In this document: positions 16,709-61,171 of the stretch, piece after piece
How the letters are laid out: every line of letters begins with the position of its first letter
Position numbering within the stretch: position 1 is the stretch's first letter
NCBI RefSeq assembly: GCF_019059575.1
Contig: NW_024881505.1
Coordinates: forward strand, 1,879,501 to 1,943,500
DNA from: Amphibalanus amphitrite
Taxonomy: Eukaryota; Arthropoda; Thecostraca; Balanomorpha; Balanidae
Direction of reading: 5' to 3'
Length of the DNA: 64,000 nucleotides
The notes under the pieces: generated by a model
What the model was told of the DNA's origin: nothing
Database searches by the model: none
The model's input: only the letters and a program-made list of their open reading frames with translations
Translations under genes and position numbers: made by a program

Positions 16709-16777
16709 CGTTGCAATTACAAATCACACCGACACGTGCGTGCACTGCACATTAATGATCTCTACGCGGTTCTTAGG

Positions 16778-25202: not shown

Positions 25203-26366
25203 CCCGCGCATGACTGGGGTATTTTCCATAACGCGAGTGACTGGGGGGGGGGGCTCTACAGAGCCCCCCCTCCTATCTCCGAAACTACTGCGCCGATCGT
25301 CAAAACTCAAACGGCGTCTGATAGCCCTGGAACAACTGTCGAGTGAAACCTATTTTCATTGACCTCGAGGTCACCGATGACGTCACAGGTCAGGTCAAAG
25401 TAAAAACTATCGACATTTTTGCTAGTTCACAATTTAGGCTCTGACCACCGGACGGCCGGTCCGATCAGGCTCATTTTTGGTTTACGCACTCCTTGACGGA
25501 TTCCTTAGATACCCTGAGGGTACCGAACTTTTACTTCGAATTTTTAAGGTCAAGGCCAGGTCATCCTAGGTCACGAAAATTGTATATCATGTATCGGTCA
25601 CGTGACGCATGTTTTATGGTCCATTTGACTCGTAGCTTTCGAAAATAGTGTCGTCTGTGTCATTTGAGGGCATTGTCAGCTGAATTTACCAGAGGTCAGG
25701 TCACTATTGTCAGAAAAGGTCAAATTTTGAAAATGAAATTTTTCAACAAAAAAGGTGCCTATCAGATGCAGATTGAGCTCAGGAACACGATGGCGCCATT
25801 TATATTGCTGTACAACGTCTAAAACTTACTGAAAAATGGATTTGAAAAAAAACATAAAATTGTAAATTTTTGACAATAATGCGAATAACTTGGCTATTTT
25901 TGAAGATATTGGGCTAAAACTTGCAGATGTAGTTCATAAGTGTGTGTTCTATCACATATATTCCGTTTTTTGCGAAAAGTCAAAAACGTTTTGAAAAAAT
26001 CAATTTTGTTTGTTATTGTAAATACATATTTTTCAAAATTTTCAAAATATCGAAAATTCGAGATGTCAGTTTGATAGCTACGTGTATTTGTATTCCACTC
26101 ATGCAAAGAAAATAGATCTAGCTTTAAAACTGAGCTCTTGAGAGCGTTTGCCGTAATTCAGTATTTTGCATGAAAATCGGCCGACAAAATCGGTCTTTCC
26201 GGTCAAGCTATGGTAGCTAGAAAGTTGAAATTTTAACACAAGGTGTCAAATTGATGCTTTTGAAGGTACCGCAAGTTTCGTGTTGATCCGTCAAACGGTT
26301 TAGAAGATATTGCTGAAAAACGGGAGGGGGCTCTGTAAAGCCCCCCCCCCCCCAGTCATGCGCGGG
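25203..26366. mobile_element. TTAA element, CCCGCGCATGACTGG class
   Basis: Ends CCCGCGCATGACTGGGG and its inverse are visible. TTAA follows the right end (26367-26370); the left site has mutated to TAGTA. The left subterminal hairpin is a G-run, CTCTACAGAG, then a C-run. The body has dense GGTCA/TGACC words and no ORF of note. It is homologous, in opposite orientation, to the nested element at 39824-41019. Confidence 0.8.
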
Positions 26367-28022
26367 TTAATACACTGTTTCCGTTTACGTTTAGGTATTT
26401 AACCCGGCCGGGCCCGGGGAGTAATCCCAACCACCGCAGCCCGGGGAGGGGCGTTTTTCGCCCCCCCCCGTCTAACTCCGTAAATAAGGGAGTTACGGAA
26501 ACAAAAGCGATACCAAACGAAAGGTCCTCACGAGACGATTCTAAAGCACCTAAAATTTTTGACCTCAGGTCAATTTTCAAGGTCAGAGGTCAAGGTCAAA
26601 GGCAAAAACCGGCACATGTGTAGTGATCTCAAAGTAAGCGTTCTAGAGGACGGCAGGATGCATCAAACCGGCAAAATTGGGTGTCAAACAAAAGACAAGA
26701 AGCTGAGGATTCCGAAACTGTGCTCAAAGTCCAAGGTCAAGGTCAAGGTCACGCTCAAAATTGACCTCAAACTTTGCACTTTTTCGTACATCTTGCGTGC
26801 TAACTTCCAAGATGTTTTGAAATGTTTTGAGGCTTATCAGTTCCCTATTTGTGGTTCATCTTACGATACAAGGCTACTCAAAGGTCAAGGTCACAGAAGA
26901 GTATCCTTGCTAGAGGCTATTTCACTGATTCAAGTTAGAAATAATATATAAGACAATTTTGCCATTCGGAAGCTCTAAATGAAGGCTTAGAGGAAAATAG
27001 ATGCCAGATTCGTGATCAGCGGGTACAAATCCATCATAGGCGACATTTCATGTGTCAAGGTCAACCAAAGGTCATTCGAGGTCACATGAGGTCAACATAA
27101 AACTTGACCTTTTCCAAACAAAATATATATCATTCGACGCGGCTTGACAAGACGAATGCGATGGTACCACTGCCGAAGCTCTACGTCCATTTTTGTCGAA
27201 GTTATTTGCAAAAAACTAAAATCACATTTCGGGGTCGTTGACCTGACCTCTGACCTCAGGTCACCAAAACTATTTCTCTATTTTTCTCTAGGCCATACGC
27301 TACACAACCGTGCTCGTAATTTGTCTTTATCTTTAAAACTCTATTTTAAAGGAAATAGTTCACTTTTAACATGGGGTTTTGAGCTGGAATAGCAGTTTCG
27401 TAGCTTGAGCTGAGACTAGCACAAATCAGGAGCTTTTACAGCTCAACGATCACCCTAGACGAAGATATTCCATTTCTCGTTCCGAAAAGAGTGCCTTGTA
27501 GAGGAATGCGTGCCTTGCACAGGAATGCAGCCACGTCATCGTCAGCCAATCAGCGTGCTGCTTACAGCCAATACAGTATTCGTAGGTTTGAGCTACGCAA
27601 TATGATTGGTCAATGCGTAATAAGCTTCCGCGTCAAACATTATTTTACATAGAATATAGTTCGTCCTATATTAAAATATAGAAAATAATTGTTTTTACAA
27701 AAAGGTTTTATTTTATTTCATGATTATTTTGAGCATAAAAAATCATAAATCAATAGCAAAATACTGATTTCAGGAAAGTGGACTGTTTCCTTTAACAGTT
27801 TTTTGAAGTTTGCGTCTGTGACGCCGAAGTTTGCCGTGCAGGGGTCTAGAAAAATCGACCCTGTGACGTCATCAAGGGGGCTAGGTCCAAATTGTTTACT
27901 TCTAAAGATGACAAATTGATGGGAGAAAAGGTACTCAAAGTTTCGCTTTCCTATCCCTAAGCGTTCGGGAGCTATCGCAAATATTCGCCAGGGGGGGGGG
28001 GGCGAAAAACGCGGGTTCCGGA

Positions 28023-28640
28023 CAAAATATCGAAAAGCAAAATATCGAATAGCAAAATATCGAAGACAAATTATCGAAGTGGCAGAAGATCGAAAGCAAA
28101 ATATCGAATGCGCAAAATATCGAAATCGCAAAATATCGAACCGCAAAATATCGACATCGCAAAATATCGACATCGCAAAATATCGAATTGCATAATATCG
28201 AATTGCAAAATATCGAACTCGCAAAATATCGAATAGCATAATATCGAAAGCAAAATATCGAAACGCAAAATATCGAAAGACAAAATATTGAAAGACAAAA
28301 TATCGAAAGACAAAACATCGAAAGACAAAATATCGAAAGACAAAATATCGAACAGACAAAATATCGAACGCAGAATATCGAAAAGACAAAATATCGAACG
28401 CAAAATATCGAACAGACAAAATATCGAAAGACAAAATATCGAAAAGGCAATATATGGAACGCAGAATATCGAAAAGATAAAATATCGAACGCAGAATATC
28501 GAAAAGACAAAATATCGAACGCAAAATATCGAACAGACAAAATATCGAACGCAAAATATCGAAAAGGCAGAATATCGAACGCAGAATATCGAAAAGGCAA
28601 AATATCGAACGCAAAATATCGAAATGACAAAATAACGAAC
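28023..28640. repeat. Left arm of ATCGAA satellite foldback
   Basis: About 618 bp of AAAATATCGAA units joined by short variable spacers (CGC, AGAC, AGGC, TAGC), repeat period about 14-17 bp. The right arm is the reverse complement. All reading frames on one strand stay open because the unit lacks stops there; this is not coding evidence. Confidence 0.95.
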
Positions 28641-28834
28641 GCAAAGACTTTGCACCCCCATCCGAAATTACCTTCCGCCGCCACTGCTGAGATCTACAAA
28701 AAATATCAGAGTTTTCCAAGTCTGTCATGGACCCGCTGATTGCTCTTTGAGGCCTACAGATAACAGAGGGCCCGATGAGTTCGACAGAGCTCTAAGGAGT
28801 CCGCAGAGGGCCATTTCAAGTCGATATTTTACCT

Positions 28835-29465
28835 TTTCGACACTTTGCGTTCGTTATTTTGTCTTTTCGATATTTTGCGTTCGATATTTTGCCTTTTCGA
28901 TATTTTGCGTTCGATATTTTGCCTTTTCGATATTTTGCGTTCGATATTTTGTCTGTTCGATATTTTGCGTTCGATATTTTGCCTTTTCGATATTCTGCGT
29001 TCGATATTCTGCCTTTTCGATATTTTGCGTTCGATATTTTGTCTGTTCGATATTTTGCGTTCGCTATTTTGTCTTTTCGATATTCTGCGTTCGATATTTT
29101 GCCTTTTCGATATTTTGTCTTTCGATATTTTGTCTTTTAATATTTTGTCTTTCGATATTTTGTCTTTCGATATTTTGTCTTCCGATATTTTGTCTTTCGA
29201 TATTTTGCGTTTCGATAGTTTGCGTTTCGATATTTTGCTTTCGATATTATGCTATTCGATATTTTGCGATTTCGATATTTTGCAATTCGATATTTTGCGA
29301 TTCGATATTTTGCAATTTCGATATTTTGCGATTTCGATAATTTGCAATTCGATATTTTGCGATTTCGATATTTTGCGATTTCGATAATTTGCGACTTCGA
29401 TATTTTGCTTTCGACAATTTGCGTTCGATATTTTGCGCTTCGATATTTTGCGTTTCGATATTTTG
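28835..29465. repeat. Right arm of ATCGAA satellite foldback
   Basis: About 630 bp of TTCGATATTTTGCG units, the inverse of 28023-28640. The arms are separated by about 195 bp of unique sequence. Spacer types run in the same nested order in both arms (long-period AGAC/CGC near the loop, shorter mixed types outward), suggesting that the whole array was inverted as a block. Confidence 0.95.
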
Positions 29466-34558: not shown

Positions 34559-35757
34559 TCGCCGCGCCCCACTGGGTGGGGCTATTTATAGCCCCCCCCC
34601 CCCTCCCGTTTTTCTGCAATAACTTCCGAACCGCTTGACGTATCGACGCCAAACTTTCAGTACCTTCGGCTGTATCAATTTGACACCTTGTGTCAAAGCT
34701 TGAATTTCGTAAAACTTGAATTTCGTACCTATAATAGGTCGGCCGGAAATGACGTCACAGTGACGTCATGTTCGGCCGATTTCGACGCAAAACATTGAAC
34801 CACGGCAATCGCTCCCAAGAGCTCAGTTTTTAAGCTAGATCCAATTTCTTTGCATGAGAGGACTCATAATAGACTGCGCTATCAAACTGCTATCTCGGAT
34901 TTTCGAAATTTTGAAAATTTCGAAAATTTCATATAATAAAATTCAAAATTTATATTTTTACATTTTTTCAAAAAGTTTTTGAATTTTCAAAAAAAACCGG
35001 AATATATGTGATAGAACGCATTATTATGACTAACTCTAGCAAGTTTTAGCTAAATATCTTCAAAAATGGCCAAGTTATACGCATTATTGCAAAAAAATGA
35101 ACAATTATTAATTTTTCAAATCAATTTTTCAGCACGAATTTGACATCGTACGCCAATATAAATAGCACCATCGTGTTCCTGAGCTCAAACTGAATCCAAT
35201 AGACACCTTTTTTGTTGAAAAATTTTAACTTCAAAATTTGACCTTTTTTGACCTGAAAGTGACCTGAACTAAGCTAAATTTGACTCAAAATGACCTCGAA
35301 TGACACAGACGACATCAAATTCGAAATGTTTGGCCTAACTGGACCATAAGACATGTGTCACGTGACCGACGGATGATATAATATTTTCGTGACCTGTGAT
35401 GACCTGCCTTGACCTGAAAATCAAAGTACAAGTTTGGTACCCTCAGAGTATCTAGAGCATCTGTTCACGAGTGTGTGAACCAAAAATGAGCCTGATCTGA
35501 CTTGTAAGACGGCGGCCAGAGCCCAAAACGTGAAGAAGCCAAATGCTAATAGTTTTTACTTTGACCTGACCTGTAACGTCATCGATGACCTCGAGGTCAA
35601 TGAAAGTAGGTTTTGCTCGACAATTTTTCCGGAGCTATCAGACGCCGTTTGAATTTTGACGATCGGCCGAGTAGTTTCGGAGTTAGGAGGGGGGGATATG
35701 AATAGCCCCCCCCCCCCCAGTAGGGCGTGTTATACGTAGACCCCAGTGGGGCGCGGG
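34559..35757. mobile_element. TTAA element, CCCGCGCCCCACTGG class, copy 1
   Basis: The left end reads CGCCGCGCCCCACTGGG with a CTATTTATAG hairpin loop. The right end reads CCCCAGTGGGGCGCGGG before TTAA (35758-35761). The body is GGTCA-rich and collinear with the outer element at 39570-41949. The left TTAA is lost. Confidence 0.8.
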
Positions 35758-35761
35758 TTAA

Positions 35762-36937
35762 CCCGCGCCGGGCCGGTGCTCTGAGATTCCGTGCCGCGCT
35801 GGGCCGGGGGGGTCTTAACACCCCCCCCCCCTTCTAACTCGGCTCCTGGGCCACGTAGCGACACGCGGTAGGCGGCAATCGAAAGAACGTCCAAAATAAG
35901 GACGAAAACACATCGGTCATTTTTTGTGTCAGGTCAAAGGTCAGGTCACCAGAGGTCACCAAAGGTAAAATGTTGACCATTTCAACATTTTGGAAACTGC
36001 CAACGGCTATCTCGGGAACCGATAGAGCTACAGCGCCGCGGAAAAGCGCATTCGATAGCCCTTTTACAGACCTTTCTGAGTAATGCTTTCAGATTTGACC
36101 TCAGGTCAACGGTTTAGCCTCCAGAGGGCAAAAACTCCAAAAATAGCCGTTTTTACGAAAATCGGTTTTTCGGCGATAACTTTTGACTCAAAAGAGCCAT
36201 GACATTACCTTTGCCAGCATCGTGTTCCTCTTGTCGAGACGCGTCGAATGAACTATCAGTTGAACTTGAAATGTCAACTTGAAAATTTGACCTCAGGTCA
36301 AGGTCATGACCTGACCGGAAAAGGTCATGTTGCATATCAGTCGATCCGCAACGTCGAGCCGAACACATCTAAGGCGTTTTCAGCGCTCTAGCACGCCTCT
36401 ATCAGAAGTTATTAGCGAAAAACTGTTAGATTCTGTTCGTGACCTGAGATTACCTCGGGGACATAACGAGGGGTCACAGTTGCCATTTTCCGGTTCAGTG
36501 TGTCAATTTTACCTACATCTCGATGTTTGAGAGTGTCTAGAATAGCGTTCGTGCAAAACAGACGCTTTTCAATTTTCTCACATTGACTTATAATGGAGAG
36601 GCCGCAAAATTGACCTGACCTTAGGTCACCGATATCAAAATTCCGAGATATGCATTTTATAGATAATGTTGCTGTCATCAATCGCTGAAAGTTTCAAGGC
36701 AATCGATCAATCGGTGTAGCTATGACGAGCATTCCTTTTTTTCTGAGGTGAGGTCACTTGGCGTGACCTGGTGACCTGACCTAAGGTGACCTGGGTCTGA
36801 AATTTTAAAAACATGTGCGGAAATGATGTACAAACAGGTGTGCCAAAAACGGCGGCGCTCCGCGCCGCCGTTTTTGAGATATCTGCGAAAAACCACAGGG
36901 GGGGGGTGTTCAAACACCCCCCCCGGCCCGGCGCGGG
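35762..36937. mobile_element. TTAA element, CCCGCGCCGGGCC class
   Basis: It abuts the preceding element and shares its TTAA. The ends are CCCGCGCCGGGCC inverted; the right TTAA is 36938-36941. Subterminal G/C-run hairpins are at both ends (loops TCTTAACA and TGTTCAAACA). The body is closely related to element B at 1.1-2.3 kb. Confidence 0.8.
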
Positions 36938-36941
36938 TTAA

Positions 36942-37139
36942 GGGCATTCCGCCAGGAAAACGGCAGAGTTATAGGAGCATGACACACCATGTCAAAGAGA
37001 ATAGAGAATCGTTTTGGTTGTCAGTGTACCCTGTAAATTTGGCGTTTCTAAGTGCCATAGGAGCCAATCGCGAGGGGGGTCATACCAACCCCCCCCCCTC
37101 GCCGTCCGTGTTATGGAAAAGGCCCTCGCCTGGCGAGTG
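36942..37139. mobile_element. Right-end remnant of a TTAA element
   Basis: A G-run, TCATACCAACC and C-run hairpin are followed by CCCTCGCCTGGCGAGTG and TTAA at 37140-37143. The left part is missing. Confidence 0.55.
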
Positions 37140-37184
37140 TTAAAATGACTTTAATATTGTTTAATGGGACTTCAAATGTTTTAA

Positions 37185-38190
37185 CCCGCGCACCGACGGG
37201 GGGGGCGGATATCCGCCCCCCCCCTGAGGTTTTTCGCGAATAGCGGGAAAACCGCGGCGCGTAGCGCCGCGAAATTTGGTACGACTATTCCCTCATCAAT
37301 TTTACACATGGTGTGCAAGTTTGAACCTCCTACCTTTTAAGGTCAGGTCACCAGGTCACTTTGAATGACCCAACCTCAAGTCACTTTTTTGCAACTTTGT
37401 CACCGTGCCAGAGCTACAGTAGATGTCGGAGGCCTTTGAAAGTCGCAGGATATTATTAGGTCATTAGTAGCTACAATTTGTATATCTCGGAATTTTGATA
37501 TCAGTGACCTAAGGTCAGGTCAATTTCGCGACCTCCCCATTATAAGTCAATGGGGGAAAAATCAACTCCCTGTTTTTACCACTAAAACGGGTCGGAATGG
37601 CCCCATATACCATACATGACTTCATATACGATCAACCTTCACTACCTTGAGGTCTGTTTTGCTGTTGGGCAGCTGTGAGGTCATGTGACGTCATCAAAGG
37701 TCACCAAAAGTTTTTTGGCCAATAACTCCGTACAGAAACAAGATGCAGCCGCGCGGATGGTCTCATTGTGTTCAGCTCGTCAAGACGCATCGAATGATAT
37801 ACATGATGACCTCGAGGTCACGTGACCTGAGGTCAACCTTTGACCTTGACCTTTCGAGGTCAACATATATATCATTCGATGCGGATTGACGAGAGGATCA
37901 CGATGATGCCCTTAGTTTGTTCCTATCTTGACTAATTCGAAAATTATTCGAGAAAAACTCTCTCCATATCTAGCGCCGCCATTTTGACTTTTTCGACCCC
38001 TGTGACGTCATCTTTGATCTGACCTGAAAATGACCTTTGTAAAAATTGTAGATCTTGACCGTGCGTATCCGATGCCGTTTACCGCTTGTCGCTATCTTGC
38101 TTCGTTCCCGAGATCTCAGGGGGGGGGGCGGTCATCCGCCCCCCCCCCCCGTCGGTGCGAAGTTGGCGCAGACCCTCGTCGGTGCGCGGG
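37185..38190. mobile_element. TTAA element, CCCGCGCACCGACGG class
   Basis: TTAA at 37181-37184 and 38191-38194; both ends read CCCGCGCACCGACG (inverted). Subterminal hairpins have CGGATATCCG and CGGTCATCCG loops between G and C runs. The 1.0-kb body is GGTCA-rich and noncoding. A truncated copy is at 56657-57118. Confidence 0.85.
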
Positions 38191-38215
38191 TTAAATCAAA
38201 CTTTATAAGCCTTAA

Positions 38216-39373
38216 CCCGCGCCCCGTTGGGGTCTGCTGAGCAACGCACCCTGTTGGGGGAGGGCAATTTGGCCCCCCTTAGATCTCGAAAACCACGCAA
38301 AATAGCGACAAGCAGCAAACGATGTTGGATAGCCCCAGCAGGGAACTACCTTGTCACCCAATTTGATTGACCTAGGTCAAACCGATGACGTCACAGGTCA
38401 GGTCAAATGTCGAATTTTCACGGTTTACAGGCATTTCAAGAAATGCGTTGTAAAATGGACTAAAATGCATTTCATTGAAAATCATCGATAGGGAAATGTT
38501 CGTCAAACACATATTGTTCTATTTGAAGTCACTGATACCAGGTCAGGTCACAGAGTTCAGGTCACTGAGGGTATGAAAATATTATGTGATGCATGGTTTA
38601 TGGTCCATTTTATATGTCAAATGCGATTATGTGGGTCAGGCAGCCTTTGGGGTCAGTTAAGATTATGTTTTGGTGAAGGTCAGGTCAAGGCCAGGTCAAG
38701 GTCAGGTCAAATTAGGTCAAATTTCAAAGTTGATATTTTTGCATAAAATGGGTATTGATTTGGTGCAGCTCGTCACGGGGAGTTCAATTGTGTTCTTTGT
38801 TTTGCGCTACGTGGTCTAGAAATGCTAAAAATTGAGTTCAAAAATTTGACGTAATCAATTTTGAACATTTTTTTCGCTATAACTTGGCCAAAAAAAGGAG
38901 GTATCGATCTAAAGTTTGGTATTTATATAGAAAAGCGCAGGGGCTATCACATGTATTCCAGTTTTTTTTTTCAAAATGCGGGAAAAAATTGGGAGTTTTT
39001 GCGTTTTCTAAAAAAATCGTCTTATTGATATTTTGAGGGTGAAAATCTCAAAATTTTGAAAATCCGTGATGAAAGCTTTGTAGCGCTGTCTGTTGCCTAC
39101 ATGACCATATAGAGAACTTTGAAATTGCTTGGTAACCGTGTGAGCGTTTCAAGATTTCATGTTTTTTGCTCATTTCTGCTCGGACATGACCTCAGTTTGA
39201 CCTCAATAACTCCTGACCTAACGTGACCTAAGACTTGAAATTTTGTGTGAAGGTGTCAAATTCATGCCCAGGAAGGTACTGAAAATTTGGCGGCGCTGCG
39301 CGCCCCCTTTTCCTTGCTATTCAGGAAAACCACAGGGGGCCAAATTGCCCCCCCCCCCCAGCTGGGCAAGAGT
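38216..39373. mobile_element. TTAA element, CCCGCGCCCCGTTGG class
   Basis: TTAA at 38212-38215 and CCCGCGCCCCGTTGGGG on the left. The hairpin core is GGGCAATTTGGCCCC at the left and its inverse GGGGGCCAAATTGCCC at about 39335. The right end is decayed (CAGCTGGGCAAGAGTG, no TTAA). Confidence 0.7.
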
Positions 39374-39569
39374 GAAAATGAACTTTACATATTTTAATAT
39401 GAATTTTTCATGATTTAAATCAAATGTTCCAAAGATTAAATTGAACTTCATAAAGTAAAAAAGGTGCAGTTGAAGAGATCTCACGAAGACACTCTGTAAA
39501 TTTTATAAGCTGGGATATTTATATTAAGTTCAATTTCGGGCCGAGTACTGCGCTAAAGCTATTTCTTAA

Positions 39570-41949
39570 CCCGCGCCCCACTGGAGGGGGGGGGCTATTC
39601 ATAGCCCCCTCCCGTTTTCCTGCAATAACTTCCAAACCGCTTGACGTATCGACGCCAAACTTTCAGTACCTAAGGCCGCATCAATTTGACACCTTGTGTC
39701 AAAATTTGAACTTGGTAACTACTATAGGTAGGCCGGAAATGACGTCAAAGTGACGTCATGTTCGGCCGATTTCGACGCAAAACATTGAACCACGGCAATC
39801 ACTCCCAAGAGCTCAGTTTTTAACCCGCGAATGACCGGGGGGGGGGGCTCTACAGAGCCCCCCTCCCGTTTTTCAGCAATATCTTCTAAACCGTTTGACA
39901 GATCAACACGAAACTTGCGGTACCTTCAAATGCATCAATTTGACACCTTGTGTCAAAATTTCAACTCTCTAGCTACCATAGTTTAACCGAAAATGACGTC
40001 AGAGTGACGTCATGTCCGCCGATTTTCATGCAAAATACTGAATTACGGCAAACGCTCTCAAGAGCTCAGTTTTAAAGCTAGATCAATTTTCGTTGCATGA
40101 GTGGACTACAAATACACGTAGCTATCAAACTGCTATCTCGAATTTTCGATATTTTGAAAATTTTGAAAAATATGTATTTACAAATACAAAAAAAAATATA
40201 TTTTTTATTTCTTTCAAAAAGTTTTTGACTTTTCGCAAAACCCGGAATATATATGATAGAACACACACTGATGAACTACATTTGCAAGTTTTAGCCCAAT
40301 ATCTTCAAAAATAGCCAAGTTATTTGCATTATTGTCAAAATTTTACAATTTTATGTGTTTTTTTCAAATCCATTTTTCAGTACGTTTTTGACGTCGTACA
40401 GCAATATAAATGGCACCATCGTGTTGCTAAGCTCAAACTGCATCTGATAGGCACCTTTTTTGTTGAAAAATTTCATTTTCAAAATTTGACCTTTTCTGAC
40501 CTGAAAGTGACCTGACCTCCGGTAAATTCAGCTGACAATAACCTCAAATGACACAGACGACACTATTTTCGAAATCTACGAGTAAAATGGACCATAAAAC
40601 ATGCGTCACGTGACCGATACATGATATACAATTTTCGTGACCTAGGATGACCTGGCCTTGACCTTAAAAATTCGAAGTAAAAGTTCGGTACCCTCAGGGT
40701 ATCTAAGGCATCCGTCAAGGAGTGCGTAAACCAAAAATGAGTCTGATCGGACCGGCCGGTGGTCAGAGCCTAAATTGTGAACTAGCAAAAATGTCGATAA
40801 TTTTTACTTTGACCTGACCTGTGACGTCATCGGTGACCTCGAGGTCAATGAAAATAGGTTTCGCTCGATATTTGTTCCAGGGCTATCAGACGCCGTTTGA
40901 ATTTTGAGTTTTTGACGATCGGCCCAGTAGTTTTGGAGATAGGAGGGGGGCTCTGGAGAGCCCCCCCCCCCCCCCCCCCAGTCACTGGCGTTATGGAAAA
41001 TACCCCAGTCATGCGCGGGTTAAGCTAGATCCAATTTCTTTGCATGAGAGGACTCAGAATAGACTGCGCTATCAAACTGCCATCTCGGATTTTCGAAATT
41101 TTGAAAATTTGGAAAATTTAATATAATAAAATCCAAAATTTATATTTTTACATTTTTCAAAACGTTTTTGACTTTTCGAAAAAAAAACCGGAATATATGT
41201 GATAGAACGCATTATTATGACTAACTCTAGCAAGTTTTAACTAAATATCTTCAAAAATGGCCACGTTTTACGCATTATTGCAAAAAAAATCACAATTATT
41301 AATTTTTCAAATCAATTTTTCAGCGCGTAGTTGACATCGTACGCCAATATAAATAGCTTCATCGTGTTCCTGAGCTCAAACTGCATCCAATGAAACCTTT
41401 TTTGTTGAAAAATTTCAACTTCAAAATTTGACCTTTTTGACCTGAAAGTGACCTGACCTAAGCTAAATTCGACTCAAAATGACCTCGAATGACACAGACG
41501 ACATCAAATTCGAAATCTCGGACCTAAATGGACCATAAAACATGTGTCACGTGACCGACGCATGATATAATATTTTCGTGACCTGTGATGACCTGACCTT
41601 GACCTGAAAATCAAAGTACAAGTTTGGTACCCTCAGGGTATCTAGAGCATCTGTTCACGAGTGTGTGATCCCAAAATGAGCCTGATCTGACTTGTAAGAC
41701 GGCGGCCAGAGCCCAAAACGTGAACAAGCCAAAATGCTAATAATTTTTACTTTGACCTGACCTGTGACGTCATCGGTGACCTCGAGGTCAATGAAATTAG
41801 GTTTCGTTCAACAGTTTTTCCGGGGCTATCAGACGCCGTTTGAATTTTGACGATCGGCCCAGTAGTTTCGGAGTTAGGAGGGGGGCTATGAATAGCCCCC
41901 CCCCCCCCCCAGTAGGGCGTGTTATACGCAGATCCCAGTGGGGCGCGGG
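39570..41949. mobile_element. TTAA element, CCCGCGCCCCACTGG class, copy 2 (split by a nested element)
   Basis: TTAA at 39566-39569 and 41950-41953. It is the same family as 34559-35757. At the point where the other copy reads CAGTTTTTAAGCTAG, this copy carries a complete second TTAA element (39824-41019) with duplicated TTAA. Removing it restores collinearity, a direct demonstration of TTAA target duplication. Confidence 0.9.
39824..41019. mobile_element. TTAA element nested in the previous one
   Basis: TTAA at 39820-39823 and 41020-41023. The ends are CCCGCGAATGACCGGGG and, inverted, CCCGCGCATGACTGGGG. It has a CTCTACAGAG hairpin at the left and a CTCTGGAGAG hairpin at the right. Opposite-orientation homologue of 25203-26366. 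Confidence 0.9.
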
Positions 41950-41953
41950 TTAA

Positions 41954-43815: not shown

Positions 43816-43994
43816 TGCAGTGTGTGTGCCCTCCCAACGGCCAGTCAACCACGAACAGGTACGTCCCGACAACTCCCAAGTGGCCACTAAATTTTTTGTT
43901 TTAATTTTTGTGCGTATAGTAATTTTTACTTGATATAACGTAACGAAAAGAGTTTATATTCCCACTGTTAGTGAACTGTTAATTGATCGTCTCG

Positions 43995-45107
43995 ATGGCT
44001 CATCCGGAAACGTCCCGCTCGCATGCTTCCGCTTCTGCCCCCTCTAACACCATGATAGATGCAATGATGCAAGGCTTTGGCATTCTTAAAAACCAGCTAA
44101 TGACAAATCAATCAGTATCCGGTAAACACCATTTTGACGGAACAAACGGTGATCATTTTTGCAAATGGCTAGCCGAAATGGACAACCTATATATGGCGCT
44201 CAAAGGCGACGAGGAACAAACTCTTTGGGCCGCTAGTCAAACACTCAAAGGCACAGCTCTCGATTACTTTCATGAAGTTTCTTCGTCTGTTGACTCTTGG
44301 GCACGCTTCAAAGCTCTCATGACCCAACGTTATCACTATCTTGACGACTCAGACACAGCCAAACAAAAGCTCCAGACGTTCGTACAAAGACCAAACGAAT
44401 CCATCCCTCTCTATGCAGAACGACTTCAGACACTCTCCCGACGGGCATACAAGGACAAAATAGACGAGTCCAGCGTAGTAGAGGCGATCACTAGGACATT
44501 CATCAATGGTATCACCGACAGAAAACTCCAGGAACGTATAGCGACCCGCCGACCAAAGACCCCAATGGAGGCATATCACATAGCCATGGACCAGATTAAA
44601 TTGATGACAGAACTAGCTACGTATCGCGACCACTCGAAAGGAAAACCAGAACCGATGGACTGCAACGCTGTGACACCTGCTCCCGAGCCCCCCGCGCAAA
44701 ATAGCGACCTGTCCGAGGTCAGAGATCTACTAGAAGTTCTGGTCAGACGCGGTGGCGATTCTTTCCAAGTCAGACCGCAGGTTAATCAGAGCTACCAACA
44801 ACCGAGCACCAATCCGAGATATCCACCACCGGTCAATCAACCGCCCCCGGGCCAGTTCTTCCAACGACAGCCCACTCAGCCGGGCCAACAGCGCCAGAAC
44901 TCTGGTAACTTCAGGCAGAATCCTGAGCCAAAACCGGTCTATCAGTGGACTCCTGATCACCGGCCGATCTGCTACTACTGCGGTATTATAGGCCACATGC
45001 AACGCGTCTGTCGAAAACGACAGTCGGCCAACGCTCCCATTCAGCACCCTCCGAACCAGCAACAAAGCAGGCCCAACAGAGACCAAACGCAGTCGGGAAA
45101 CATGTAA
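43995..45107 (+). CDS. gag: Gag polyprotein (env-Gypsy)
   Basis: 370 residues from the ATG at 43995; the same frame is open a few codons upstream without an ATG. A retrotransposon Gag capsid region lies at about residues 35-190 (WLAEMDNLYMALKG, LKGTALDYFHEV, FKALMTQRY). A long Pro/Gln-rich linker follows, then a single CCHC zinc knuckle CYYCGIIGHMQRVC near the C-terminus and a Gln/Asn-rich tail. It packages the RNA genome into a particle. The last codons contain a G-GGA-AAC heptamer in the gag frame, two codons before the stop, ideal for -1 frameshifting into protease. Confidence 0.9.
   Translation: MAHPETSRSHASASAPSNTMIDAMMQGFGILKNQLMTNQSVSGKHHFDGTNGDHFCKWLAEMDNLYMALKGDEEQTLWAASQTLKGTALDYFHEVSSSVDSWARFKALMTQRYHYLDDSDTAKQKLQTFVQRPNESIPLYAERLQTLSRRAYKDKIDESSVVEAITRTFINGITDRKLQERIATRRPKTPMEAYHIAMDQIKLMTELATYRDHSKGKPEPMDCNAVTPAPEPPAQNSDLSEVRDLLEVLVRRGGDSFQVRPQVNQSYQQPSTNPRYPPPVNQPPPGQFFQRQPTQPGQQRQNSGNFRQNPEPKPVYQWTPDHRPICYYCGIIGHMQRVCRKRQSANAPIQHPPNQQQSRPNRDQTQSGNM
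45095..45101 (+). promoter_or_regulatory. -1 ribosomal frameshift heptamer GGGAAAC (gag to pro)
   Basis: The heptamer fits X-XXY-YYZ and is correctly phased to the gag codons (TCG GGA AAC ATG TAA). A -1 slip enters the frame that stays open through the protease. The same heptamer is used at some retroviral gag-pro junctions. A downstream pseudoknot was not assessed. Confidence 0.7.
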
Positions 45108-45505
45108 AGCCTCACACCAATTCGGCGACAGGCGGTACAGAGACCGCCCAAATTTTGAAGATCAATGAGAACTGCCCTTACGTCGACATTTCTATCGGGA
45201 CGCACCCCTTTCATACACTTTTGGATACTGGATCGCAGCTTTCCCTTGTTAGTGAAAAGTTCGTCGAATTGTTGGACCCGTCGCTAGTGAGACCAGCAGA
45301 AAAGCAAAGAGTTACCTTGGTGTCAGCTTCTGGGCATAAACTGAAACCGACCAGATCGGTCAAAATACGAATCACGCTAGGAAAAGTGCGCATGTATCAT
45401 GACTTCGTGGTAGTGGACGATTTCAACCATGATATGATTTTGGGTATCGATTTCTTGAATGCCAGGAAAGCACTGTTGGATTTTTTGAGGATTTTGAGAT
45501 TATGA
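45101..45505 (+). CDS. Retropepsin-type protease (env-Gypsy)
   Basis: The frame is open from the frameshift site to the TGA at 45503-45505. It holds an active-site LLDTGSQLSLV and the second conserved hydrophobic-Gly motif ILGIDFLNA, the two halves of an aspartic protease monomer. It would mature Gag-Pol. The internal ATG at 45155-region is not needed if translation enters by frameshift. Next to the end is a T-run heptamer aligned for a second -1 slip. Confidence 0.8.
   Translation, partial: HVKPHTNSATGGTETAQILKINENCPYVDISIGTHPFHTLLDTGSQLSLVSEKFVELLDPSLVRPAEKQRVTLVSASGHKLKPTRSVKIRITLGKVRMYHDFVVVDDFNHDMILGIDFLNARKALLDFLRILRL
45481..45487 (+). promoter_or_regulatory. Possible second -1 frameshift heptamer TTTTTTG (pro to pol)
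   Basis: T-TTT-TTG is phased to the protease codons (GAT TTT TTG). A -1 slip enters the pol frame, whose first ATG is at 45502. Alternatively the T-run has simply lost or gained a base in this copy. Confidence 0.45.
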
Positions 45506-48189
45506 TCATTGGAAGGTACGTATACCCACTCAAAACCAAACGAGGCAAGAGCGCTAAAGAAACAAATTTAGTGAGACTCGCGGAGGACGTAGACGTCCTC
45601 CCACGTTCGGATTTGCAGGTCAAATGCGCTATCACAAAGAAAAACAAACCTGGTGAAAGTTTCGTCGTGACTCAGCTCTCATCGTCCCCGTGTTTCGAAA
45701 ATGAACCCGGTATTCTGCTACCAAACGCTGTCGTGAAACTCTCAAAAAATCGTCATATTCCCTGGGCAATTGTGAATGAAACGGGTCGGTATTTGCATCT
45801 GAGAAAAGGACAAGTTATTGGAGTAGCTACAAAATTCGACGATTCAGAAATCAAGCCGAACGTTTCAACAGTACAAAAATCAGAGGAAAAAGTGAAAGAG
45901 AACCCAGAGGACAAGAGCAAGTCATTCAAGCTAGATCATATTCCAGACGACCAAAGAGATCAATTGAAAACGCTTTTGCTTGGCAATATGGACATATTTG
46001 TGGAAAAGGATATAGAGTTAACTACGACCAACGTTACTGAAATGAGAATCAATACACAAGACCATCCCCCAACGTATCAGGCTCCCAGGCGACCGCCGCT
46101 CGCCTATCGAGAAGCGCTAGAAAAACAAATTCAGGACATGTTAGCCGCCAACGTCATCCGTCGGAGCAATTCACCGTGGATGTCACCTGTTCTGCTAGTT
46201 CCCAAAAAAGATGGCTCGCTTAGACTTTGCGTAGACTTTAGAAAGTTGAATGCTATTACAGTTAAGCCAGCAGCTAGCATCCCGTCGCCCGATGACATAT
46301 TCTTCGCGCTAGGAAAATCTAAGTTCCGCACTTGTCTGGACATGAAACAAGGTTTTTGGCAAATTCCTATCAGGGAAGAAGACAAAGAGAAGACTGCTTT
46401 TGGAACAGATGCAGGCGTGTTCGAATACAATCAATTGGCCTATGGATTGTGTGGCTCGCCAGCCGTTTTTCAAAATTGCATGAACGCTGTTTTAGGAGAC
46501 ATTCGTCATTTTGCCCTAGCGTTCGTGGACGACATCATAGTGTTCAGTGAAACGTTCGAGGACCATCTGAAACACCTAGATGAAGTGTTCAGTAGACTGC
46601 GCAAGGCCAACCTGAAATTAAAAATTTCAAAGTGCGAATTTATCAAAGATAAACTCAACTATCTGGGACATATAATTTCAAACGATGGAATTTCGGTTGA
46701 CCCCCAGAAAGTCTCAGCAATCCAAAACATGCAACCTCCCCAAAACGTGCGAGACGTCAGAAGTTTTCTCGGTATGGCATCATACTACAGAAAGTACGTT
46801 CCAAATTTCAGTAAATTAGCGAAACCTTTAAATTCACTGACAAAGAAACATGCCAGATTCCACTGGCCGCCCGGAGCGCAAAGCGCATTCGAGTCAATCA
46901 AACAAGCACTCCTCCAGGCCCCGATCTTAGCTTTCCCAGATATAACTAAACCCTTCAAGCTGTACACCGATGCTTCCCAGTACGCCTTAGGCGCAGTTTT
47001 GATGCAAGAGCAAGACGGCCAAAATCGGGTCATTCAATATATTTCACATCAGTTTTCGGAGCAAAGACTTAAATGGCCTACCATCGAACGCGAAGCATTT
47101 GCCATTGTCTATAGTTTGGAAAAACTCCGTCCGATTATCATTGGTACCGATATCACAGTTTATACCGATCACAAGCCGCTGAAACATTTGTTCACTAGTG
47201 AAATGAAAAACCCTCGCATCCAAAGATGGGCTATTATTCTCGGCGAATACGGATGCAAAATCGAGTACATTTCCGGCCCTCAGAACGTAGCAGCTGACAT
47301 GCTGTCACGACTGCACAACACCCCAGTAGCAGACGACCTGAACGACAATGAGCACCTCGACTGGCAAGGCGACTCGGTCAATGTCAATGTAGTCGATAAC
47401 CAGGTACAAATCGAGGCGGACGAACAAGATTCCACTCAGAAACCACCAGACTATCACGGTATCGACGCAGATTCGTTACGGAAAGCACAACGGAACGACC
47501 CAGAATCGAAACAAATTATAGCGGACCTTCAGTCAAACGATGAAAGCAATCCAAATAGCCAGAGGTATTGTTTGGACGACGGACTCCTATATCACATAGA
47601 GAAAAGTACAAAAACCCGGCCGCTTACTAAACTCCAACTCGTCCTGCCGCCCGAATTTAGGAAAATAGTTCTTCAGTCCGCTCATGACGGTTATTTTGGA
47701 GGTGATTTAGGAATCGAGAAAACCACAGACAAAGTGCTCAAATCGTACTATTGGCCCTCAATACTGAAAGACGTCATGCAATATGTCTCGTCATGCGACA
47801 CGTGCAACAGAAAAAGGCTCAACAAAGAAAGACGCCCAATGCAGGACATGCCTATGCCTTCAGCCCCCATGGAAATCATCGGTATAGACACGTGTGGTCC
47901 ATTTCCCATATCAGACAAAGGAAACAAATATGTATGCACGATCGTTGATCACTTCAGCGGATGGCCGGAAGCGTGGGCTATCCCAGACAAGTCGGCTAAT
48001 ACCATCGCAAAATTACTTTTGGAAGAATTCATCCCGAGACATGGCTGTCCGCGAACCATCATTAGCGATCAAGGTACGGAATATTGCAATGCGCTCCTGG
48101 ACCTAGTCAACCGTGAATTGGGAATTTCACGAGTCAGAACGTCAAGCTATCATCCCCAGTCAAACGGAAAAAACGGAGCGATTTCATAG
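45484..48189 (+). CDS. pol: Reverse transcriptase-RNase H-integrase (env-Gypsy), 5' part
   Basis: An open frame of about 900 codons (first ATG at 45502). Visible domains: reverse transcriptase with motifs VPKKDGSLRLCVD and the catalytic AFVDDIIVF (VDD codons 46525-46533); RNase H with LYTDASQYALG, an ERE motif and VYTDHKPL; integrase zinc finger H-X-H-X-CX2C (ending SCDTCNRK); integrase core with the first Asp in GIDTCGPF and the second in IISDQGTEY. The frame stops at TAG (48187-48189) just after the PQSNG motif, before the catalytic Glu, because of an indel in an A-run (48168-48173). The rest continues in another frame. As read this copy gives no full integrase. Confidence 0.9.
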   Translation, partial: FEDFEIMIIGRYVYPLKTKRGKSAKETNLVRLAEDVDVLPRSDLQVKCAITKKNKPGESFVVTQLSSSPCFENEPGILLPNAVVKLSKNRHIPWAIVNETGRYLHLRKGQVIGVATKFDDSEIKPNVSTVQKSEEKVKENPEDKSKSFKLDHIPDDQRDQLKTLLLGNMDIFVEKDIELTTTNVTEMRINTQDHPPTYQAPRRPPLAYREALEKQIQDMLAANVIRRSNSPWMSPVLLVPKKDGSLRLCVDFRKLNAITVKPAASIPSPDDIFFALGKSKFRTCLDMKQGFWQIPIREEDKEKTAFGTDAGVFEYNQLAYGLCGSPAVFQNCMNAVLGDIRHFALAFVDDIIVFSETFEDHLKHLDEVFSRLRKANLKLKISKCEFIKDKLNYLGHIISNDGISVDPQKVSAIQNMQPPQNVRDVRSFLGMASYYRKYVPNFSKLAKPLNSLTKKHARFHWPPGAQSAFESIKQALLQAPILAFPDITKPFKLYTDASQYALGAVLMQEQDGQNRVIQYISHQFSEQRLKWPTIEREAFAIVYSLEKLRPIIIGTDITVYTDHKPLKHLFTSEMKNPRIQRWAIILGEYGCKIEYISGPQNVAADMLSRLHNTPVADDLNDNEHLDWQGDSVNVNVVDNQVQIEADEQDSTQKPPDYHGIDADSLRKAQRNDPESKQIIADLQSNDESNPNSQRYCLDDGLLYHIEKSTKTRPLTKLQLVLPPEFRKIVLQSAHDGYFGGDLGIEKTTDKVLKSYYWPSILKDVMQYVSSCDTCNRKRLNKERRPMQDMPMPSAPMEIIGIDTCGPFPISDKGNKYVCTIVDHFSGWPEAWAIPDKSANTIAKLLLEEFIPRHGCPRTIISDQGTEYCNALLDLVNRELGISRVRTSSYHPQSNGKNGAIS
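48168..48173 (+). other. Frameshifting A-run in integrase
   Basis: Six A residues; the frames before and after differ by one base, consistent with one extra A. It separates the PQSNG motif from the catalytic Glu region. It could be a true mutation or a homopolymer sequencing error. Confidence 0.8.
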
Positions 48190-49330
48190 GTGCATGAATG
48201 ATATGATTAGGAAACAAATTAGCGAAGACCAAACAAAGTGGGATGAAGTTTTGCAACCATGTTTAGGCGCTTACAGGGTGAGCAAAAACGAGTCTACTAA
48301 GTACTCACCCTATTTTATCATGTATGGTAGAGACCCCGTTCTGCCTGTTGACACGCTCCTGCAACCTAGATTGCGGTACTTTGGTGAAGATTACGTTCCA
48401 ACAATGTTCGAGCATTTGCATAATGCTTATTCACACGTAGTAGAAAACATGCAGGAAGCTAGAGATCGGAACAAAGCTCTTATTGCGAGGAACGCGACCC
48501 CTTCAGATTTTGCACCAGGTGACCTTGTTTACTATTTTGATCCTTCAGTACAACCGGGTGATACTCCCAAATTCACGCTACCGTGGAAAAACCACTTCCG
48601 AATAGTCTCAAAATCAGGTCCCGAGAACTATTACATCAAAAACATGTTAACGGGGAAATCAAAATTAGTGCATTCAGAAAACTTGCGTAGGAAGGACGAG
48701 AACGATGTTTGGGACAGAGTTTATGATGCAGTAAAACGCCCCCTACAGGTAGGCATCCGCCCAGAAGAGGAACCTACTCGCCAGCAACCACTCCGTGCGG
48801 CCAGGTTACCGTTCGGTGACCAACCCTGGTTTGCTTCTATGAGCACACCAAACCCCACAGACAAATCAAGAGAAGGCACTGCAGATATCCAGGGAAAGGA
48901 CAGCGGTCCTACCCCTGAGACCCCTTCAGTAGCAATAGGTGACCCCAGTGTTATTAACTCGCCACAGTCACCGGACAATGGTGAGCATGGTCAGTTACCG
49001 CCGCTACCACAGAGGCTACATGGATACAACCTCAGGTCTCGAGCTCAAACGAACGAGCCTCTAGAAGGGTATGAATACGTACGGAGACCTTACGTAAGGA
49101 AACGAGATGACAGCTTTGATGAGTGCCCGCCAGACAAGAGGCCTAAGGTCCAATCGGAAACTGACTGCCTGGCAGTGATAGCTAGCGGTCCAAATGACGC
49201 TGAAGTCCAACAGCCATTTGCCGAGATGACTCACCATGATCACAGTGATTCATCAAATTGGTTACCGAAAGCCCACATGTTTCTTGTATATACATTGACT
49301 ATGGCTCTTCTTAGCCCTAGCCCAATGTGA
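48174..49330 (+). pseudogene. Integrase C-terminal part and long pol tail (env-Gypsy)
   Basis: The open frame after the A-run break has the integrase core's third catalytic region, the LGAYRVSKNESTKYSPYFIMYG segment typical of Ty3/Gypsy integrases, an SH3-like C-terminal segment (FAPGDLVYYFDP, NYYIKNMLTGKSKLVHSENL), and a 200-residue polar tail with a YNLRSR motif. The far C-terminus is hydrophobic (FLVYTLTMALL). Labelled a pseudogene piece because translation from pol cannot reach it without a frame change. Confidence 0.8.
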
Positions 49331-49340
49331 TATATGGTCG

Positions 49341-49356
49341 TTGTGTTGTGTTCCAG
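49341..49356 (+). promoter_or_regulatory. Putative splice acceptor before env
   Basis: TTGTGTTGTGTTCCAG lies just before the env ATG (49359). Errantiviral env is known to be made from a spliced RNA; use of this site is inference. Confidence 0.4.
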
Positions 49357-49358
49357 AC

Positions 49359-49901
49359 ATGGCAGTCACAACGATGCTGTACGGATGGCTGCTGCTGCTC
49401 ATGGTAACAAAAACGCTTAACATTGCTTACTGCTCTGCTGCCCCTACTGACCCCGGACATCTATTCATCCCGCTAGGAAAAACTTACCCAAGCTATAGTT
49501 CATGGGCTATCACCCTCTCAATCAGCATGCAACCCTACCGCCAAGATGTCCGAGAGATCAATGATGCTACCGACCAACTCTTCCGCACCGCAAGAACGCT
49601 GATTACAAATCACCCGCCGCCTGCCAATGCCACCGCTGCTGACCCAGCTCATGCTTCTCTAACTGTATCGCTCAAACATCTGTCCCACTCCATTGGTCAG
49701 CTGCAAACAGAGGAGAACCATCTCGTCAACACATTTCGTGACCTGCTGTCCATCCCTGAGGCACGGAGTTCTGCACGTTCGGCTAACTCTGTTCGTCGAA
49801 CTGGTCGCTCCAAGCGCGTTAAGCGAGGACTCATAGATGGCATTGGAAGCGTAATGTCGTCTCTGTTTGGAACGGCCACTGAAAGTGAGATCAAGCATTT
49901 G
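49359..49901 (+). pseudogene. env: env-like ORF, N-terminal part (interrupted)
   Basis: Starts at ATG 49359 with a hydrophobic signal peptide (LYGWLLLLMVTK). Ectodomain follows with an N-glycosylation-type site, and ends shortly after a basic furin-like cleavage motif (around 49806-49826) and a small-residue-rich putative fusion peptide. This layout is that of the F-type envelope proteins of errantiviruses and related baculovirus proteins. The frame is interrupted at 49902 by a small retroelement and then runs into a TATTCA repeat and a stop (49932-49934). An intact copy elsewhere might mediate membrane fusion; this one cannot as it stands. Confidence 0.75.
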
Positions 49902-50347
49902 TATTCATATTCATATTCATATTCATATATTTAACGAATCATTCCACGTGTGTGGCTTATTGTGCGATCCGTGTTAGGTTCAGTAACATCAGTAAGTACA
50001 TGTGCAACAGAAAGAACAGAGAACGAGTGACCAGAGACAAAGACGAAATTGACGACTAGACGATACAAATTTCAGGGCAGTGCATGTTCATCGAGCATAG
50101 CCGTGAGACGGGCACGGGTGCGAGAAGACCTAAGTTGTTGCGGCAGGCGGTTCCAAGTTGCGGCCGCTCTGTAGGAGAAACTTCGCCGCGACATACTGAG
50201 GCGAAAACCAGGTAACTCAAGTACCCCCGTACTGCTGGCGCGCGTCGTTCGCGCACTGACATCAGCCCGGTACGAAAACAGTGCGCGGGTGGCAGTAGGA
50301 GCGCGGAAGTCATTCAAGGCCCGGTGTATGGCCATACAGTTGATTTG
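49902..50347 (-). mobile_element. Truncated non-LTR retroelement inserted in env
   Basis: A 446-bp insertion including a 5-bp target duplication ATTTG (49897-49901 and 50343-50347). The minus-strand 3' end is a TGAATA repeat tail; the inside (minus strand, 50080-50300) codes for a typical CR1-like RT C-terminus (RSFSYRAAATWNRLPQQLRSS). The env frame resumes in phase after it once the insertion is discounted. It resembles the insertion at 213-957. Confidence 0.9.
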
Positions 50348-51934
50348 AATAATAACGTCGAGCTCATCAACGCTAAAGAGGTTGCTATGGCCCACGCATT
50401 TAACGGTACGCTTAACGTCATCAACTCCACTAGAGTAGCTACTACACAAAACCGCAAAGCCCTTCGTACTCTTCAGTCAGCGATCCGCTCGATGAGCGCA
50501 TCGCACTCGCAATTAATCAGGGCCGCCGACAATGCAGATGAACTTATCACGGTATCGCTTCGAGTAGCCGACCTTGCTGAGAACGTAAGACAAGTTACTA
50601 GAAGTCTCAACCATCTGTATACTTCGTTGGTGTCTCTCTCTGGCAAACTCGCTCTAGCCCAGGTAGGGATCCTCCACGCTGACCTTATTCATTCCCGTGA
50701 CCTCAACCGTGTCCTTCGCAAGGTGAGCAAAAGCCTTCCGGCACATTTTGCACTACCCTTTCCGCCTTCAGCTACCCGCGACTACATTCGCATTGTTAAA
50801 ACCAAGCTCATCCCCGTTGATGATGCCTTCCATGTCCTCTTTTACATCCCACTCCTTCACACGCTTCATGCGTTTGATGTTTATCGTTTCTTCCCTTATC
50901 AGGTCCCGTTCCACAACCACAACATTTCTCTCCTCTATGTCCCGAACGAACCACGCTACCTGGTTGTATCAGAGAACAGACAACAATACATTCAACCGGT
51001 CGACTCTGAAATGGAAGCTTGCCTTCTGATCAAACAACCGTTCTGCCCCCTTCATGAACCAGCCTACTCCATGGCAAATGCAGATTCGTGCGTTGTCGCA
51101 CTTTTCCGTCAAGACGAGCCAGCTATCTCTCGTCTCTGCAGCCCAATTGTCCGCCCCACGAACGACGCACCCAAGGCCCATTATCTCTCCCGGGGCACGT
51201 GGCTATTAGTCTCCCGTCCTCCCCTGTCAATTACCATCGTCTGCCCTTACAACAGCACCACGATATCTATCACGTCCCCGGTTCGCCTTCTCACCCTACC
51301 CTTGGAATGTTCTGCCTCTAGCGATTCCCTCTATCTCCCTCCTTATTACGCCAGCGAGACACACCTAAATTTCCCTGACTTTGACGACTCGTTCTTAATC
51401 TCAAATGACTCGTCACTAGTTCCACTCTGGCGCCCGCACTGGACCAGCGCCATTCCAACGGTTACGCCAGCCAACGCCTCACTCATACCTGCACTTCACG
51501 TCGCAGGTATGCCAGCTAATGCTTACTTCAACCGTCTAGAAGCCCAGCCACTCGAACAGGTTGTTGACGACACTCCTTCCGCATTCTCATATACCTGGCT
51601 GCTCATGATCACACTAACTGTTATCGCCGCTTGCTGCATGTGCTTCTGCATCAAACATTGCTGCCCCCGCTCCCTCGCTAGCTACCGCTTCCCACGCTTT
51701 GTGCCTGCTTCTGCTACTAGAGTCAACCCAGAGCCAGCCATCGAGATGGACGAGTGTTACCCCACACTTGGCCCTCCAGCTGCTCCACCGGGCAGTTTGC
51801 AAAGCCTCCGTGAAGACACCGCAGTTGACGCATCGGCGTCTCTCGGTGAGACCGTGGCCACAACGGACTTGTCGCGACGTGACCCATTTACCCGCCGACC
51901 AATTCCGCCCACACAGCTGTCGCCAGTGGTGTGA
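50348..51934 (+). pseudogene. env: env-like ORF, C-terminal part (interrupted)
   Basis: About 528 codons from the resumption of the env frame to TGA at 51932-51934. It contains heptad-like helical segments early on (VADLAENVRQVTRSLNHLY), several cysteines, multiple N-glycosylation motifs, a transmembrane helix at about 51589-51660 (WLLMITLTVIAACCMCFC) and a cytoplasmic tail of about 90 residues with Pro-rich ends. The layout suits the fusion subunit of an F-type envelope. It is disconnected from its signal peptide by the nested insertion. Confidence 0.75.
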
Positions 51935-60526: not shown

Positions 60527-61171
60527 CCCATTAGATACGCTTGGTAGCTTTTGCTGCCACAGGACAAAATAGCGCCGCATTCCTAAACGTTGCGGTGAAC
60601 TTTCAAAGTTCTCACCCGAACGGAAGACCAAAACAATGCACGTCATGTGCGCGCCGAATTATTGATCGAGAAAGCGAATGTGCTGAGAAATAAACAATTT
60701 ATCGCGGGGGTGCAAGGGGCGCGCGATGGCGGCCGTGCGGCGGACACCAAAGAAGTCAGTTGCGAAGGTGGTGTGAATAAATGTTACCTTTTTATTATTG
60801 ATTATTGTAAAGAAATGTGTGATTATCAATGGGAAGGGCTTAGGTGCGACATGAATTTCTCTAAGTATCGCCAATCGTGCGTTATATTTAAGTGGCAGCA
60901 AAAGCTGCCAACCGTATCTTACGTAGTCAAAAATGGAGCAGTTACGTCCTTTTTGCTATGTCATTCGTAAGTGAGCAACAATGTCTGGCTTTATGGCTCA
61001 TAGTGTAATGCCCCAGTGCTTTGCCTTTCCAAAAATGGTCATTGCCGGGGTTTCTGCTATTTATTCTTGTCTGCAGAGCATTGCATACCAACACACTACC
61101 AGGCGTGTCATGTATTCCGCCATTGCTGAAGCAGGGACGTTGAACGGAGTGGTGCGGACAAACTGTCATCA

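Follow-up and report, generated by a model that had tools for sequence, protein, structure and literature searches.

The stretch described here lies in a window of 64,000 nucleotides from the barnacle Amphibalanus amphitrite (contig NW_024881505.1, positions 1,879,501 to 1,943,500 of the forward strand), which is the whole DNA analysed and to whose first letter the positions below refer. Between 34559 and 41953 it holds six elements (A–F, Table 1), of which F is nested in E, and these are very probably piggyBac transposons of the type known from Trichoplusia ni (T. ni), mostly non-autonomous relatives of about 1.0–1.2 kb moved by way of palindrome-bound ends. From sequence comparison the assignment to piggyBac of the T. 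ni type is firm, and the roles suggested below for the G-run arms of the palindromes and for the AGGTCA arrays are more tentative.

Each intact end of A–F reads inward from TTAA through CCCGCGC or a near form to a palindrome composed of a G run, a core specific to the element class, and a C run, and an open reading frame scan found no frame of at least 150 amino acids (aa) within the stretch. A first-pass annotation of the same DNA had described CCC ends, TTAA flanks, palindromes of G and C runs and GGTCA-rich bodies, all of which are present in the sequence; it had also counted at least a dozen elements or fragments, and family ends do recur across the window, but the stretch itself holds six elements, one inside another. 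The whole window contains 16 CCC[GT]CGC ends with a perfect TTAA, and ends or fragments of the same family, CCCTCGC classes included, were noted at 1087, 3930, 7028, 22064, 25203-26366, 29503, 29737, 54624 and 55896. A and E are 94% identical over aligned bases, A and B have one TTAA in common, and B contains 24 GGTCA/TGACC motifs. The tip and loop of D are like those of a left end adjoining a transposase at C702, and the end at 3930 has its tip and core in common with a left end near a transposase at C778.

Table 1. Elements and G-run palindromes of the stretch, in window positions (LE, left end; RE, right end).
Feature	Position	Strand	Description
Element A	34561-35761	+	Non-autonomous; right end intact; left end decayed, flank ATCG, no TTAA; loop class CTATTCATAG/CTATTCATAT
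TTAA in A	34830-34833	none	Empty site matching the F insertion in E
Palindrome, RE of A	35689-35718	-	39 bp from tip
Element B	35758-36941	-	Non-autonomous; both ends intact, RE on the left, LE on the right
Palindrome, RE of B	35806-35831	+	44 bp from tip
Palindrome, LE of B	36898-36924	-	13 bp from tip
Element C	37181-38194	+	Non-autonomous; both ends intact; 21 GGTCA/TGACC
Palindrome, LE of C	37198-37224	+	13 bp from tip; loop CGGATATCCG
Palindrome, RE of C	38119-38150	-	40 bp from tip; loop CGGATGACCG
Element D	38212 to about 39374	-	RE (left) intact; LE (right) decayed
Element E	39566-41953	+	Non-autonomous; both ends intact; split by F; 1188 bp without F
Palindrome, LE of E	39586-39609	+	
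Element F	39820-41023	+	Non-autonomous; at a TTAA inside E, TTAA duplicated
Palindrome, LE of F	39837-39863	+	Loop CTCTACAGAG
Palindrome, RE of F	40945-40979	-	Loop CTCTCCAGAG
Palindrome, RE of E	41880-41910	-	

The ends fall into two kinds according to the depth of the palindrome. In a survey of 46 TTAA-flanked ends, which includes the loci L001-L008 and several near-identical copies and in which the G run was allowed to lie 8-48 bp from TTAA, the run starts 13, 14 or 16 bp from TTAA in 20 ends and 39-46 bp from it in 26, and none of the 46 has it at any other distance within that range. The asymmetry is that of left and right, with the palindrome deeper at the right end (39-46 bp) than at the left (13-16 bp): automatic pairing joined one left and one right end of the same element in 14 of 17 cases, and in the remaining three it had combined ends from different elements. 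A short motif beside the run is doubled at the right end, examples being ACCGAC (C) and ACGACCA (the 4.0-kb element described below). Both arms of the palindrome, rather than a lone G run, are present at both ends; the G and C runs have a median length of 9 and a maximum of 19 (92 runs), and the palindromes of the window are 24-35 bp long. When folded as single strands, five of six ends form a clear hairpin and the sixth a weak one (z -1.9 to -4.2). The subterminal hairpin of the first-pass annotation is present, but stands at two fixed distances from the tip and not at one.

Insertion duplicates TTAA, as in the piggyBac superfamily. The uninterrupted A provides the empty site of F, with one TTAA and with flanks identical in 19 of 20 and 58 of 60 bases. 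Flanks were counted in part of contig C1 together with local sequence: among 305,723 bases, from which L001-L008 were excluded as loci picked by TTAACCCGCGC, of 27 CCC[GT]CGC ends that have a G-run hairpin, 22 stand next to a perfect TTAA (the other five next to AAAA, TTAC, GTAA, GTAC and ATAT), and 37 of 45 forward left ends on C1, counted where they lie in range of the genome-wide TTAACCCGCGC list, carry TTAACCCGCGC in place. A preponderance of other flanks, on which the first-pass annotation was prepared to give the family up, was not seen in these counts. Across the genome (807,550,619 bases, with the reversed pattern as control) TTAACCCGCGC occurs 23,341 + 23,450 = 46,791 times, against 75 + 67 = 142 for the control, and the left-end pattern CCCGCGCN6G7, without TTAA being required, 8,646 + 8,682 times against 29 + 29. 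On C1, 31 of 33 reverse left ends have an upstream TTAACCCGCGC at no more than 6 kb, at a distance of 923-1205 bp in 28 of the 31 pairs and of 4053-4658 bp in three (median of the 31, 1194 bp); the short copies, without transposase and uniform in size, resemble miniature inverted-repeat transposable elements (MITEs). Extrapolated from this sample, and assuming two intact ends per copy and the C1 median length, there would be about 23,400 copies amounting to 28 Mb, or 3.5% of the genome. At one locus (L028:7-3825) a short element has a 2681-bp CCCATTA-type piggyBac between its two G-run ends, and two piggyBac groups are nested there.

Transposases were found in full-length elements with the same kind of ends. 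PF13843 (DDE_Tnp_1_7) has 116 matches in the genome, of which L009-L028 and 26 further places were inspected; most of the inspected loci whose ends were found start with TTAACCCATTA, and four are elements that measure 3,971-4,819 bp, have G-run ends and contain frames of 590-674 aa, the domain being covered from 2 or 5 to 349 of its 349 positions in the full-length relatives. A fifth locus (L049) has a G-run right end and a TTAA with one changed base. The 4.0-kb (3.97-kb) type has a frame of up to 674 aa. The 4.7-kb type has a 666-aa frame at three loci, which are separate insertions, since their flanks differ; both ends were found at two of them (4,723 and 4,732 bp), and the left end of the third copy (C257) was not found in the stretch examined. 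Between the two complete copies there are 10 differences, nine in run length and one a substitution. The tips have the CC[C/T] start of the piggyBac superfamily, CCTTCGC on the left of the 4.7-kb type representing the CCT form and CCCGCGC standing on its right. About 1.1-1.5 kb from the left tip of this type (C33, C431) a 188-bp unit is 100% identical to its neighbour, and the two make up a direct repeat that lies between left zone and gene, and beside the third copy lies a 357-aa mariner-like frame (L057:878-1948, minus strand). Two A. amphitrite proteins, named ‘PiggyBac transposable element-derived protein 4’ and ‘putative nuclease HARBI1’, match 51% of the length of the 4.7-kb transposase at 98%, and a third protein of the species matches it at 42%. 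On the mitochondrial contig of the assembly, tRNA-Leu(TAA) comes after COX1, a gene order of Pancrustacea. The search for autonomous piggyBac copies with the same ends, proposed by the first-pass annotation, has thus yielded the 4.0-kb and 4.7-kb types, and their transposase frames bear out its reading of TTAA plus CCC ends as piggyBac; its term ‘transposase-less’ fits the copies found in the stretch but not the family as a whole.

In a tree of 37 different transposases, midpoint-rooted and with some long branches, the G-run-ended ones form one clade of eight rows (L033, L035, L037, L038, L039, L041, L049 and L052) with a support of 100/100. The cysteine-rich domain (CRD) of the T. ni pattern, C-x2-C...C-x2-C-x4-C-x2-H...C-x2-C, is found in six of the eight, the other two being L035 and L038, whose frames are disrupted or short at the C-terminus, and in none of the 29 transposases outside the clade, some of which are fragments. 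Among solved structures the best match of the 674-aa frame is T. ni piggyBac at 267 bits, and its three D motifs, those of the catalytic aspartates, align with chain 6x67_C. L033 and L041, two other transposase lineages of the clade, had been placed in the tree before their ends were known; downstream of each, the nearest correctly oriented left end is a G-run end, with the run at 14 bp (L033) and 13 bp (L041) from the tip and with CTAA instead of TTAA as the flank of L033.

GGTCA and its complement TGACC occur 106 times in the stretch, against 12.9 expected and no more than 24 in any of 100 first-order Markov sequences. The bodies had earlier been called saturated with this motif, and the excess is indeed strong, but A, E and F carry it almost solely in one half. 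In the window, four frames that belong to other elements (7, 21, 3 and 2 sites) all stay within their simulated maxima; the rest of the window (52,140 bases), which still includes other ends of the family, has 221 sites against 96 expected. There are 42 against 10.8 expected in the 4.7-kb type, mainly in the outer 800-1000 bp of each side and hardly in the gene, and 29 against 9.2 in the 4.0-kb type, and no excess was seen in three CCCATTA/CCCAGAT piggyBac families (6, 8 and 7 against 6.2, 6.2 and 6.7). The motif is also conserved between diverged copies, when compared with control pentamers of the same zone that have no CpG, two or three G/C and no overlap with the motif: 11 of 12 motifs of A are kept in F (controls 34/134), 10 of 16 and 12 of 16 motifs of B in the two ends of the 4.7-kb element (controls 18/197 and 15/174), and 8 of 20 between D and E (controls 13/262). 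Fisher p over the four comparisons ranges from 1.7e-5 to 7e-9, which is only a guide, as sites close together are not independent of one another. When pentamer classes are restricted to those having 16 or more sites and more than two letters, AGGTC and GGTCA rank first and second in conservation, both among 47 classes in pairs at 80% identity and among 95 in pairs at 60%; the aligner may favour the motif at 60%, and A/F at 80% is the safer comparison. Being conserved between diverged copies and not enriched in the three other families, AGGTCA is probably a binding site.

AGGTCA is the half-site of nuclear receptors, and it is a serious possibility, if somewhat short of an even chance, that the arrays serve a host receptor, in expression or in the opening of chromatin, and not the transposase. 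In 77% of 176 sites (eight elements, some of them related) the base before GGTCA is A, and in the 4.7-kb type the arrays flank the gene on both sides, as such a role would lead one to expect; the spacing, however, weighs against it. The commonest same-strand distances are 5 bp (25 cases) and 10 bp (17), and to our knowledge half-sites only 5 bp apart overlap in a way that known receptor pairs do not. An ecdysone-type inverted repeat was considered and set aside, the spacing with a 1-bp gap occurring once in the 176-site set.

The short B and C resemble internally deleted relatives with subterminal zones that became fused, and such an origin would explain their GGTCA-filled bodies. B aligns with both ends of the 4.7-kb element, at 66% over 742 bp and at 62% over 766 bp, and so does C, at 60% (753 bp) on the one hand and at 64% (459 bp) with 65% (220 bp) on the other; D aligns with the 4.0-kb type over about 180 bp. 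The CCCATTA/CCCAGAT-ended piggyBac elements were rejected as a source: the three tested have no GGTCA excess, and they stand on another branch of the tree and lack the T. ni-pattern CRD.

In the mechanism that we propose, the transposase of the full-length relatives would cut and paste the short copies. A transposase dimer would hold the two tips, and its C-terminal CRDs, again as a dimer, would bind the palindrome, whose start lies 13-16 bp in from the left tip and 39-46 bp in from the right one and whose arms would in this clade have turned into G and C runs that vary in length. The right end, with about 27 extra bp that include a second tip motif, might allow a second transposase dimer to load. 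The subterminal AGGTCA arrays would act in cis as binding sites, for the transposase or for a host protein, and be kept by selection on mobility. Copies like B and C would have arisen through loss of the middle, while what A, E and F have in common with the full-length elements examined is confined to the ends. We infer that the G-run palindrome is the CRD site of T. ni piggyBac with its arms turned into G and C runs, because it has the same position as the palindromic site of the T. ni ends LE35 and RE63 (a 19-bp CRD site at bp 17-33; PMC7351741) and because the tip motif is doubled at the far end; we would claim, on this ground, that these ends function in the manner of T. ni piggyBac. Among nine other piggyBac families in the genome, five have at one end an 18-26 bp palindrome whose centre lies at bp 24.5 and whose best perfect-centre form contains no more than one mismatched pair (left end of L009, L044, L034 and L030, right end of L032).

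Several observations weigh against this reading. No such palindrome was seen in the other four of the nine families (L010, L014, L022 and L019), and in two full-length elements of the clade the centre of the left palindrome is at bp 29 and not 25. The palindromes are near the T. ni CRD site in position, but they have neither its sequence nor its length (24-35 against 19 bp), and because of this the placement in the T. ni group rests on the transposase and on the CRD pattern. A, E and F align with the full-length elements only at their ends, over 57-142 bp, and no autonomous partner of the three was found among the full-length elements examined. For the elements at C778 and C702 no right end was found in the sequence examined, so that the assignment of their left ends is by place and orientation only.

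Other explanations of the ends fare worse than that of a protein-bound piggyBac palindrome. The lack of any long frame in the stretch would suit a separate, transposase-less superfamily that merely imitates piggyBac ends, but full-length elements with such ends encode piggyBac transposases, and one type has the GGTCA zones as well, which leaves that idea with next to no chance. The first-pass annotation had suggested that the G runs could form quadruplexes, and quadruplex or i-motif signals in place of a bound palindrome would have a precedent in Tetrahymena, where A5G5 tracts and the G-quadruplex-binding Lia3p occur near deletions made by a domesticated piggyBac (PMC6547420). The runs are long enough to invite the comparison; when quadruplex prediction was run on the ends, however, the canonical motif was found in only 6 of 46, so that it is not a general feature, a run of at least 15 is present in 3 of 46, and both arms of the palindrome, not the G run alone, are present at both ends. 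We consider this alternative quite improbable. That the runs are artefacts of assembly or sequencing is harder still to believe and has a very slight probability: nine of the 10 differences between the two 4.7-kb copies are in run length, but G runs at fixed distances recur in thousands of copies. Their exact lengths are doubtful all the same, the differences fitting slippage in the cell and sequencing error alike. A bolder extension of the proposed mechanism, which we consider improbable, is that the homopolymer-arm palindrome is a length-tolerant dock for a sliding CRD dimer and that the AGGTCA arrays recruit a host nuclear receptor, in which case some 23,000 copies scattering receptor-like arrays may have rewired gene control.

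The window probably also holds other mobile elements. By its motifs, a 1560-aa frame at 12041-16723 (minus strand) resembles the gag-pol of a long terminal repeat (LTR) retrotransposon, and the frames at 43983-51934 (plus strand) the gag, pol and envelope-like protein of an LTR element; those at 59374-60572 (plus strand) resemble a Penelope-like reverse transcriptase, and a 411-aa frame at 7695-8930 (minus strand) a Tc1/mariner-type transposase. The sequence at 27724-29387 is repetitive and open in several frames of both strands, encoding repeats such as SIFCVRYFAF.

Two traits of these elements are new to us, namely palindrome arms made of homopolymers where the CRD site would lie, and AGGTCA arrays that are conserved, although an entry in a repeat database such as Repbase may exist. 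By title and start of abstract, the literature on barnacle piggyBac held nothing on these elements, and that on piggyBac and AGGTCA nothing on transposon ends; in the literature searched, no other piggyBac lineage with a strongly conserved array of short words was found, and we know of no AGGTCA arrays in T. ni piggyBac. Pokey and mPok of Daphnia are alike in that large MITEs (about 750 bp) exist beside full-length elements, neighbours meet at a shared TTAA, and short repeats occur in non-coding parts; TTAA is found in 88% of Pokey insertions, but mPok has 90-110 copies as against the some 23,000 estimated here, and G runs are not mentioned in the part of the text cited (PMC3849761). In piggyBat of Myotis lucifugus there are repeated subterminal transposase-binding sites, and a motif with an imperfect palindrome at the left end, but the transposase match is weaker (108 bits) and the CRD fold is unlike that of piggyBac (PMC11707139). 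Coral CMITEs are likewise piggyBac-type MITEs with an unusually conserved interior, but there the whole interior is conserved, and the cited part of the source mentions neither an array of short words nor G runs (PMC2872659). T. ni piggyBac, for its part, shares TTAA, a palindrome at unequal distances from the two tips, the right-end insertion with a doubled motif (PMC7351741) and the CRD pattern, gives the best transposase match among solved structures (267 bits), and differs in that its 19-bp palindrome-like site is without G/C runs and the shift is 28 bp (63 against 35) compared with about 27 here. The first-pass annotation knew of no described family with this architecture; the G runs and the GGTCA packing are indeed unusual, but T. 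ni piggyBac has the same spacing, left/right asymmetry and doubled tip motif (PMC7351741). In the structural study of T. ni piggyBac the asymmetry of the ends is described as puzzling and enigmatic (PMC7351741). Here a natural clade with thousands of copies keeps the end asymmetry while the palindrome changes, and therefore the rule behind that asymmetry should be readable from evolution.

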